Shown: positions 17,819 to 27,865 of the stretch, in pieces
How positions within the stretch are numbered: position 1 is the first letter of the stretch
How the letters are laid out: each line of letters starts with the position of its first letter
IMG/VR virus record: IMGVR_UViG_3300042905_004616
Location: 1-28,716 of that record
DNA: 28,716 bases
Direction: 5' to 3' (one strand)
Source of the DNA: a virus
Translations under genes and position numbers: made by a program
The notes under the pieces: model-generated
Told to the model about the DNA's origin: nothing
Databases searched by the model: none
What the model saw: only the letters and a program-made list of their open reading frames with translations

Positions 17819-17853
17819 TTCTACTATAACTACTAACGAAAGAAGAACAGACA

Positions 17854-18516: not shown

Positions 18517-18547
18517 TACGGCATAGAAACAAACGAAAGGACAACTC

Positions 18548-19779: not shown

Positions 19780-19808
19780 ACTCTTATTCCAACAACGAAA
19801 GGTATCAA

Positions 19809-20560: not shown

Positions 20561-20616
20561 TGTGAGGTAACTCACACCCGCAGGGGCTACTAAATGTCAG
20601 TAGTCCCTGCTATAAT
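20561..20616 (+). promoter_or_regulatory. Early promoter with exact Crp-type palindrome
   Basis: TGTGA-GGTAAC-TCACA at 20561-20576 directly after a stop codon, then TGTCAG at 20595-20600, 10 bases ending in TGC, TATAAT at 20611-20616. Centre to -10 is 42.5 bases, the shortest of the set. AACGAAAGG follows. Confidence 0.7.
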
Positions 20617-20642
20617 AAACCCCTAACGAAAGGAAATAAAAA

Positions 20643-20879: not shown

Positions 20880-20910
20880 ACAAACTAAACAACCAAACGA
20901 AAGGTAAGAA

Positions 20911-21862: not shown

Positions 21863-21893
21863 AAATCCAACAACCAATCGAAAGGAAAAATCC

Positions 21894-23150: not shown

Positions 23151-23804
23151 ATGACCAACGAACTAGTATCAAGTAAATATACATTTGTCTGTGACCCAGA
23201 GGAATGCGATTGCTTAATAGAACTAACATCATCTGACGGGTTTGGATTCCCATCAGGTGTGACAGAACTAACATGCCCGTGTGGACGGAAGACCACATTG
23301 GTGTCAGTGGAACATGCTACAATACAACCTACACAAACGAAAGAGGAAAAAATGGAAACAACAGAACACCTAGTACCTGATACATATAACACAGACCTAC
23401 TCGTAACATATAAAAAGATTAATGGTTTTTCTAATCCTGAGTATATTACAGATAAGGTTCGCAACATTGAGTGGGAACTACACAATGCACGAACCAACTC
23501 TAAAGCAGTTGCAACAATGCAGTCAAAGATTGATTCAGTTAAAGATATCATTACTGATGCATATGCTGACTCAGGTGACCAAGATACTCTTCGTGCAATC
23601 GCAGAGGCGCTTGATATTGAATTAGTTAAGGAAGTTGAATGGACCGCATCTATTGAGGTTAGCGGAACATATTCATATAACATCCTTGATTCAGACTATG
23701 AGCCTGACCTTACAGATGAAATTACAGATGCTATCTATGCTGAATCTCATAACGGTAATATCGAAATTACCGACCAAGAAGTCTGCAATGTGAGAGAGTC
23801 CTAA
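23151..23804 (+). CDS. Two-part protein with an internal promoter and start
   Basis: The full frame gives 217 residues. Residues 1-51 (FVCDPEECDCLIELTSSDGFGFPSGVTELTCPCGRKTT) form a Cys-rich, zinc-ribbon-like unit. At Met68 (23352) a second start has its own promoter (23302-23323) and ribosome site (AAAGAGG). The 150-residue part from there (METTEHLVPDTYNTDLLVTYKKINGF...DQDTLRAIAEALDIELVKEVEWTASIEVSGTYSYNI) matches a protein I recall as a separate gene in Streptomyces-type phages. So the frame may produce a short and a long form, or be two genes fused in frame. Function unknown. Confidence 0.68.
   Translation: MTNELVSSKYTFVCDPEECDCLIELTSSDGFGFPSGVTELTCPCGRKTTLVSVEHATIQPTQTKEEKMETTEHLVPDTYNTDLLVTYKKINGFSNPEYITDKVRNIEWELHNARTNSKAVATMQSKIDSVKDIITDAYADSGDQDTLRAIAEALDIELVKEVEWTASIEVSGTYSYNILDSDYEPDLTDEITDAIYAESHNGNIEITDQEVCNVRES
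23302..23323 (+). promoter_or_regulatory. In-gene early promoter
   Basis: TGTCAG-TGGAACATGC-TACAAT with TGC before the -10, followed by ACAAACGAAAGAGG and the ATG at 23352. It is translated in the long form as part of VSVEHATIQPTQTKEEK. Confidence 0.6.
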
Positions 23805-24373: not shown

Positions 24374-24781
24374 ATGGGAGACAGAGCAAACTTCGGATTC
24401 GTACAACCGAACGGAAACACAATTGTGCTATACGGGCACTGGTCAGGCTATAACATGCTTGGGCGCTTAGCGGATGCAGTTATTGTTGCACGGCCAAGAT
24501 GGACAGATTCATCATATGCTACACGTATTGCGATTAGTCAAATAGTTGCAGACCAGTGGAATATGGAAACTGGATGGGGCCTCCATGTAAATGAGATTGG
24601 CGACAACGAGCACAAGATTGCTATCATCGATTGGGACCAGCAAACGTTTAGTCTTCACGAGCAGGCAGACTATCGTGATGAGTCTAATAAGATTCGTGGA
24701 ATGAAAAACGAGGCAATCTTTACAATGGACCTTGCCGCATTTTGCGAGAAGTATGCACTAGAAAATATTCTAGTTAACTAA
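24374..24781 (+). CDS. Conserved phage protein of 135 residues
   Basis: MGDRANFGFVQPNGNTIVLYGHWSGYNMLGRLADAVIVARPRWTDSSYATRIAISQIVADQW...GLHVNEIGDNEHKIAIIDWDQQTFSLH. The MGDRANxxF and LYxHWxG motifs occur in a family of phage proteins of unknown function. Start 1 base after the previous stop. Followed at once by a promoter for a candidate RNA. Confidence 0.72.
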   Translation: MGDRANFGFVQPNGNTIVLYGHWSGYNMLGRLADAVIVARPRWTDSSYATRIAISQIVADQWNMETGWGLHVNEIGDNEHKIAIIDWDQQTFSLHEQADYRDESNKIRGMKNEAIFTMDLAAFCEKYALENILVN

Positions 24782-24784
24782 ATA

Positions 24785-24793
24785 TGATATAAT
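24785..24793 (+). promoter_or_regulatory. Extended -10 promoter of the candidate RNA
   Basis: TGATATAAT begins 3 bases after the stop codon of the 135-residue gene; no TGTCAG or good -35 is present. Confidence 0.5.
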
Positions 24794-24799
24794 ATAAGT

Positions 24800-24938
24800 A
24801 GGCCTGGTGCCTTCTTAATGTGAGGTGCGGCTAGATTAGACACTCGTCAAGTCGCTAAGTAAAGCAGGGCTTTTTACTTTCGTTGGTAGACCTAGCAGCC
24901 TTACTATTTAAACCCCTAGCGCAAGCTGGGGGTTTTTG
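24800..24938 (+). ncRNA. Candidate structured RNA of about 140 nt
   Basis: It lies between its own extended -10 box and a strong terminator, with no convincing reading frame. Possible helices: GCGGCT (24827-24832) with AGTCGC (24850-24855), GTAAAGC (24859-24865) with GCTTTTTAC (24869-24877), and the terminator stem. I do not recognise a known RNA family. It could also be a long 3' untranslated region. Confidence 0.5.
24911..24938 (+). terminator. Strong intrinsic terminator with GCAA loop
   Basis: AACCCCTAGC (24911-24920) pairs along all ten bases with GCTGGGGGTT (24925-24934), closed by a GCAA tetraloop and followed by TTTG. Confidence 0.85.
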
Positions 24939-24941
24939 TAT

Positions 24942-25089
24942 GCCCGCAAAAAACAGAGGGTAGCATATCTCTTTTACGGAAGTCAATATAATTCCCCTGG
25001 ATTTTTGTGATCTTAACCACAAGCTGAATAAAATGTGGTGTGAAACACACCCAAATACTATTCCAAATGTCAGTGGTCCATTGTATAAT
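24942..25089 (+). promoter_or_regulatory. Regulatory cassette 5 (Crp-type site, promoter)
   Basis: GCCCGCAA at 24942, TTACGG at 24974, CCCC at 24994, TGTGA-TCTTAA-CCACA at 25006-25021 (one mismatch), TGTCAG at 25068-25073, 10 bases, TATAAT at 25084-25089. Centre to -10 is 70.5 bases. ATCAACGAAAGG leads to the ATG at 25117. Confidence 0.68.
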
Positions 25090-25116
25090 TAAGCCATATC
25101 AACGAAAGGATATAAA

Positions 25117-26406: not shown

Positions 26407-26594
26407 CTAAGTCATCTGTATTTATAGAGTATATGAAGTTACATCTAACTAGTTTAGAACAAGATAAAGAGATGATATCTATAAATGATGAGCATAGTAG
26501 ATGTGTGGTAGCAGGACAAATTGAAGCAACCAAGCATTTATTGTCAGTGGCTCTTGATATAATGAACTCTACTAACGAAAGGTTATATAGATGA
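26403..26594 (+). CDS. Hypothetical 63-residue protein
   Basis: MTKSSVFIEYMKLHLTSLEQDKEMISINDEHSRCVVAGQIEATKHLLSVALDIMNSTNERLYR. The start is the ATGA overlap with an AAAGG upstream. Two helices with a short turn. Its 3' half carries the promoter and ribosome site of the next gene. Confidence 0.6.
   Translation: MTKSSVFIEYMKLHLTSLEQDKEMISINDEHSRCVVAGQIEATKHLLSVALDIMNSTNERLYR
26542..26563 (+). promoter_or_regulatory. In-gene early promoter
   Basis: TGTCAG-TGGCTCTTGA-TATAAT, with TGA before the -10, followed by CTAACGAAAGG and the ATG at 26591. A full match of all parts inside a coding sequence. Confidence 0.62.
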
Positions 26595-27819: not shown

Positions 27820-27865
27820 TAGGGAGGGTCGACTACCTTTCGGGTTGACCTTCCCTACTTTTTTT
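27820..27865 (+). terminator. Strong intrinsic terminator
   Basis: TAGGGAGGGTC (27820-27830) pairs with GACCTTCCCTA (27847-27857) and is followed by CTTTTTTT. The end of the U-tract runs into the next -10 box. Confidence 0.85.

Follow-up and report, generated by a model that had tools for sequence, protein, structure and literature searches.

A structured RNA family of freshwater phages with an invariant loop complementary to a ribosome-binding word of the phages' own genes

Genome comparison revealed a previously unlisted RNA family in a large group of freshwater phages whose hosts are probably actinobacteria. Its members fold as a three-way junction, and the apical loop of the third hairpin exposes an invariant word, CUUUCGUU, whose complement, AACGAAAG, is an extended Shine-Dalgarno word in front of start codons of the same phages. 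We consider it likely (probability about 0.68) that the RNA acts in trans as an antisense RNA which covers this phage-specific Shine-Dalgarno word and thereby represses a set of phage genes.

Results

An RNA locus directly behind gene A

The window, i.e. the whole stretch of DNA that was analysed, is one complete virus record of 28,716 bases. Its left part is encoded on the minus strand and holds genes for tail-fibre and other structural proteins, a ribonucleotide reductase and a glycosyltransferase. The right part is encoded on the plus strand and contains numerous small genes without assigned function, often behind sigma-70-like promoters; we call this region early by its gene order and promoter type only. 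Relatives in IMG/VR reach ∼118 kb, and no DNA match to the window was found in annotated phages. Among annotated phages, homologues of gene A, the constant upstream neighbour of the RNA, all occur in phages of Actinobacteria or in phages with a predicted actinobacterial host; the nearest belong to DSL-LC01 and to Streptomyces, Gordonia and Nocardia phages. The RNA was absent from the pieces of these gene A relatives that were searched. Because both the gene A homologues and the reductase, whose nearest relatives are Streptomyces phage reductases, point to actinobacterial phages, the host is probably an actinobacterium.

A preliminary description of this DNA had proposed a structured non-coding RNA between an extended -10 box and a GCAA-capped terminator. 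All these elements are present at 24785-24935 (Table 1), among small genes that have promoters of their own, and we count one more base pair in the terminator stem than the 10 bp given there. The promoter, whose extended -10 box starts four bases past the gene A stop, is a feature of the window but not of the family as a whole: an extended -10 box separates gene A from the RNA in only 37 of 94 relatives, and a terminator-like hairpin follows the RNA in 77 of 94. In many relatives the RNA begins 9-16 nt past the gene A stop in the manner of a 3′ UTR RNA; in these it would form the end of the gene A transcript or be released from it by cleavage. A coding role is ruled out, since 90 of the 94 relatives have no open plus-strand frame through the RNA core and no frame is conserved.

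Table 1. Coordinates of the RNA locus and of its proposed target sites in the window.
Feature	Position	Strand	Basis
Gene A (phrog_31860)	24374..24781	+	Constant upstream neighbour of the RNA
Extended -10 box TGATATAAT of the RNA promoter	24785..24793	+	Sequence
5′ hairpin	24797..24815	+	Fold; only in lineages with promoter, some relatives without
RNA core, predicted three-way junction P1-P2-P3, 85 nt	24820..24904	+	Alignment of 54 relatives, covariation, covariance model (84.6 bits)
P1 5′ strand, pairs with 24898-24904	24820..24826	+	Covariation
P2 5′ strand GCGGCU, pairs with 24850-24855 AGUCGC	24827..24832	+	Changes on both sides in up to 33/54
Linker J2/3 UAAGUAAA, conserved	24856..24863	+	Alignment
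P3 hairpin, one bulged base on 3′ side	24864..24896	+	Covariation
Seed CUUUCGUU, P3 apical loop	24877..24884	+	Identical in 54/54 aligned; single complementarity peak
Intrinsic terminator (GCAA-capped 11-bp stem, then a T run)	24910..24935	+	Sequence and fold
AACGAAAG before gene 17854	17835..17842	+	Proposed target; word search
AACGAAAG before gene 18548	18532..18539	+	Proposed target; orthologues with versus without RNA
AACGAAAG before gene 19809	19794..19801	+	Proposed target; word search and orthologues
AACGAAAG before gene 20643	20625..20632	+	Proposed target; word search
AACGAAAG before gene 20911	20896..20903	+	Proposed target; orthologues with versus without RNA
Near-match ATCGAAAG before DUF932 gene (start 21894)	21877..21884	+	Proposed target; full word in most relatives
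AACGAAAG before start at 23352	23336..23343	+	Proposed target; word search
AACGAAAG before gene B (start 25117)	25101..25108	+	Proposed target; word search and orthologues
AACGAAAG before gene 26591	26574..26581	+	Proposed target; word search and orthologues

Three side observations were made elsewhere in the window. Directly past the terminator lies GCCCGCAAAAAACAGAGGGTAGCATATCTCTTTTACGGAAGTCAA (24943-24988), which the window contains once; all relatives conserve it strongly, even where gene B lies elsewhere, and it may be an operator or a further RNA element. At 27820-27857, a strong terminator hairpin bears in its loop CTACCTTTCGGG, a partial copy of the seed; this arrangement is not general in the clade, and seed-bearing hairpins were dropped as a general second class. 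Finally, a TGTCAGTGG-like stretch stands a little 5′ of the -10 box of several proposed targets (20600-20620, 23310-23330, 25070-25085 and 26540-26560); the RNA's own promoter lacks it, and a strict pattern search for it gave no match.

Covariation defines a three-way junction

Folded on its own, the window sequence was not significantly more stable than shuffled sequences (z = -1.68 with the terminator, 0.09 without), and not all of its minimum-energy helices are the conserved ones. The case cannot rest on folding alone, because without the terminator the single-sequence fold is no better than shuffled. We gathered relatives through proteins A and B (78 and 80 loci) and found the homologous RNA directly 3′ of gene A in 94 distinct phage sequences, 54 of which were used for structural alignment and covariation analysis. 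The several helices suggested earlier for this stretch do not stand out in the window sequence by itself; the comparison supports a common three-way junction, with strong compensatory change of the kind that had been proposed as a check.

In the 54-sequence alignment 94.7% of cells were paired, and the covariation score was 0.439, versus 0.138 ± 0.011 for shuffled controls and ≤ 0.097 for slid partners. P1 closes with GGU/GCC and is freely variable beyond. P2 changes among relatives from GCGGCU/AGUCGC to GCAUCU/AGAUGC and GCCCCU/AGGGGU, and P3, which begins with GC, from AGG/CCU to AGC/GCU, AUCGG/CCGAU and AAAUCC/GGAUUU. The linker J2/3 reads UAARUAAA in most aligned relatives. Such agreement is far beyond chance, and the fold deduced from comparison is well supported. 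A covariance model applied to 100 loci chosen by a loose DNA pattern recovered 32 at E < 2e-12, with no further hit up to E 1. It gave no good match in the bacterial contigs searched with it (57 of 80) or in DSL-LC01, and a generic pattern scan of bacterial genomes returned chance matches only. As the preliminary description had recognized no family, so Rfam 15 at gathering thresholds yielded only tRNAs; the best sub-threshold hit was a terminator match (NsiR1, 21.9 bits, threshold 39).

Two candidate features of the fold were set aside. A pseudoknot between J2/3 (UAAGUAAA) and UUUACUU in the loop is possible in the long-loop subtype, and is not claimed because the other subtypes do not keep it. 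The resemblance of GGUGCGGCU in the window to the 3′ end of 16S rRNA was dropped, because P2 becomes GCAUCU and GCCCCU in relatives.

The seed loop is complementary to a start-site word

CUUUCGUU was kept in the P3 loop of every aligned sequence, with loop length and flanks varying. In the window, its complement AACGAAAG has eight copies on the plus strand, all of them followed by an ATG at a distance of 2-13 nt, and a single minus-strand copy, which is the antisense of the RNA loop itself. A nine-letter form of the word is present in 5-8 copies in 106-116-kb relatives, on one strand only and clustered within ∼7-11 kb (except one copy 40 kb off in genome G005). The earlier hint at a regulatory role agrees with an invariant loop whose complement is the extended ribosome-binding site of a gene set in the same phage.

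To profile complementarity, we matched each 8-mer of the RNA against the 24-base stretches in front of 2530 starts from 82 genomes. At the loop, the 8-mer had its complement in 311 of the 2530 start regions; counts fell off at neighbouring 8-mers and reached 0-5 clear of the loop. In these genomes, start regions are thus complementary to the loop and to no other segment of the RNA. As the word is partly a Shine-Dalgarno sequence, some match is expected for any anti-Shine-Dalgarno sequence; its AAC part is not explained in this way. We expect the 16S tail to end in CCUCCUUUCU, for which AAC is presumably not needed. By computed duplex energy, the loop binds more strongly than this expected tail at the nine proposed window sites and not at most other starts. 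In the window RNA the predicted apical stem of P3 takes up some of the seed bases, and base-by-base covariation between the flanks of loop and target is weak and confounded by the Shine-Dalgarno sequence. Taken together, the comparisons give good support to the AACGAAAG start-site word as the pairing partner of the loop. Loci of > 20 kb have ∼5-11 genes with the word per phage, among them those for the DUF932 protein and an Api92-like protein (gene B of the window, Api92/DUF1281-like); the others are mostly without assigned function.

We propose that the junction RNA presents CUUUCGUU in its third hairpin for pairing with the word 2-13 nt 5′ of start codons. The duplex would spread over the Shine-Dalgarno sequence and keep ribosomes off, so that initiation would fail at these ∼5-11 genes of the same phage, which are mostly small and have their own promoters. 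Since the 16S tail would not need the AAC part, the word would set apart one class of genes belonging to the phage itself, and host and late genes would be spared. A likely use would be to limit or shut off the gene set as infection proceeds. Family, fold, seed, complementarity and the tie of the word to the RNA are shown by comparison, whereas expression of the RNA, repression rather than activation, the timing and the advantage of turning off one gene class without touching host and late genes are inferred.

Real pairing could have another outcome: the RNA may stabilize or activate the mRNAs, or their leaders may serve as a sponge that titrates the RNA until it acts elsewhere at a later time. 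The comparisons give pairing and co-occurrence, not direction, but the predicted duplex covers the Shine-Dalgarno sequence itself just before the start, and a duplex in this position generally represses. We consider stabilization, activation or titration unlikely.

Occurrence of the word tracks that of the RNA

We assembled a sister clade through the DUF932 protein. None of its 80 loci had the RNA, and the covariance model found no match up to E 1; by pattern, the RNA was present in 73 of 80 loci of the window's clade. Of the seven others, six are pieces that stop short of the RNA position and the seventh is the L103 contig described below. AACGAAAG preceded 489 of 3400 starts in the RNA clade versus 48 of 3481 in the sister clade, where AGAAAGG (183) was commoner. 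Orthologues of gene 20911 carried the word in 78/80 loci of the RNA clade versus 0/76 of the sister clade, those of gene 18548 in 74/75 versus 0/64 (47 sister-clade members had AGAAAG), and those of gene B in 63/68 versus 0/16 (14 had AGAAAG); the DUF932 gene had CGAAAG in 81/81 versus 0/80. Two smaller families were less clean, with the word in 10/67 and 6/48 sister-clade members.

These genomes are mosaic, which allows a gene to be separated from its genomic background. The distant DUF932 allele had CGAAAG in 9/9 loci with the RNA and in 0/82 without, and the near allele had AGAAAG in two loci (L155 and L156), both without the RNA. For gene B the word likewise tracked RNA presence. By this comparison, the word goes with the RNA and not with the allele of the gene. 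Since many of the loci are near-copies of one another, the association, though strong, rests on few independent gains and losses. In the sister clade, a search for an analogous RNA directed at AAGAAAGG gave no conserved candidate.

Separately, we observed in L405-L484 versus L485-L564 that the sense strand of the RNA clade seems to avoid CCTTTCG, CCTTTCTT and, except within the RNA, CTTTCGTT. Avoidance was gauged against the reversed words; the RNA-less clade shows none, and codon use may contribute.

The lake phage DSL-LC01, assembled from a metagenome and with a predicted actinobacterial host (PMC10611076), has CGACGAAAGGACAA or CGACGAAAGG before ∼20 genes; it lacks the RNA, and its early strand carries no long complement of the word. 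A CGAAAGG-type site can therefore exist for other reasons; the word may have been there first and the RNA fitted to it, or DSL-LC01 may have an unrelated RNA that we did not recognize. As a side observation, an intergenic region of this phage (L402, 4230-4320) contains GTCCTAAGGTAGCGA followed by CACTTTCGTTG; the former corresponds to a conserved stretch of 23S rRNA.

The seed is kept or rebuilt where the fold is lost

Three lineages have lost or rebuilt the fold. In L073 the RNA is reduced to a bare hairpin, GGTGGGGAGGTTTCCTTTCGTTCTCCCTCCCCAC, with the seed still in its loop. L090 has an RNA behind gene A that lacks the seed (30 bits) and, ∼2.5 kb further on, the hairpin GGGGAGGTTGGTTCCCTTTCGTTGCCAACCTCCCC. 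In L103 it is the P2 loop that reads seed-like (CCCTTTCGG). All three retain AACGAAAG words before genes, and these exceptions suggest that selection maintains the display of the word and not the three-way junction itself.

These lineages bear on two further explanations. The first is that AACGAAAGG is kept for another cause (a translation factor of the phage, for example, or the ribosomes of a certain host), and that the loop is unrelated or only secondarily fitted. The occurrence of CGACGAAAGG in DSL-LC01, which lacks the RNA, speaks for this explanation; yet within the two clades the word tracks the RNA and not the allele, the loop is invariant while the stems around it vary, and the seed is rebuilt where the fold is lost. 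In addition, three actinobacterial genomes, which may not be kin of the true host, showed no excess of AACGAAAGGA. We regard this explanation as unlikely. According to the second one, the RNA is a scaffold for a protein or senses a ligand, and its loop sequence is needed for this interaction. The compact junction and its conserved linker UAARUAA do exceed the needs of a simple antisense hairpin, but the bare hairpin of L073 retains the seed and complementarity along the RNA shows a single sharp maximum, at the loop, which makes this role very unlikely.

Gene B and action in trans

In the window and in many relatives gene B follows the RNA. In others gene B lies ∼2 kb upstream of gene A; the RNA stays behind gene A, and gene B keeps the word there, which argues that the RNA acts in trans. 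At the level of sequence, the RNA has what is generally asked of a trans-acting antisense RNA, namely a seed complementary to the start regions of several mRNAs encoded elsewhere. An attenuator or riboswitch in the leader of gene B, suggested by gene B lying 3′ of the RNA with a ribosome-binding site complementary to the loop, is largely refuted by the terminator and new promoter between RNA and gene B, by the lack of a fixed position upstream of gene B on the same transcript, and by the word at many other genes.

Discussion

We found no description of such an RNA in the openly licensed literature, and by the features tested it is a member of none of three systems that resemble it. The alpha-r14 or 'cuckoo' sRNAs of alphaproteobacteria, e.g. 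NfeR1, carry an anti-Shine-Dalgarno word in the loops of diverging stems (PMC10746234). As in these sRNAs, an identical anti-Shine-Dalgarno word stands in an unpaired loop on widely different stems, with many predicted mRNA targets; this is a likeness of mechanism, not membership. The alpha-r14 sRNAs are bacterial, usually have three hairpins and carry CCUCCUCCC, which is not found in the hairpin loops here, whereas the phage RNA has one loop with CUUUCGUU, and its seed extends past the Shine-Dalgarno sequence into a word common to the phage's own genes.

Phages P1 and P7 encode the c4 antisense RNA (PMC12197685), which is likewise structured, has its complementary parts in loops and binds a phage mRNA at and near the ribosome-binding site. 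In contrast to c4, which has one target (ant) and acts in immunity, the word of the RNA described here is common to ∼5-11 genes, all of them other than ant, and the c4 Rfam model gave no match on the window at any reported threshold. The RegB endoribonuclease of T4 inactivates early mRNAs at GGAG Shine-Dalgarno sites (PMC3014915). The analogy, a functional one only, is that a class of the phage's own early mRNAs is turned off at a Shine-Dalgarno word; RegB is a protein that cleaves, whereas the phage RNA would pair.

In Streptomyces phage StarPlatinum a tmRNA gene (L399, 6418-6697) sits directly behind the gene A homologue. Neither the window nor its relatives have a tRNA-like domain or a tag frame at the RNA position, and the 85-nt core has another fold. 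Position alone is common to both, and we rejected the idea of a tmRNA remnant.

Phage antisense RNAs treated in review mostly have one phage gene or host genes as targets. A broader proposal, to which we would give even odds, is a phage-wide translational switch, in which a private extended Shine-Dalgarno word and one dedicated RNA would shut off a whole early gene class and spare host and late mRNAs, word and seed being kept together through gene swaps and through loss or rebuilding of the fold. The pairing yields sharp predictions that can be tested by compensatory mutation, and the comparison offers a route to further circuits, through ribosome-binding words that differ between sister clades and RNAs that bear their complement. 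If true, the RNA would be a counterpart of T4 RegB, and one RNA with one word would control a whole class of phage genes post-transcriptionally.
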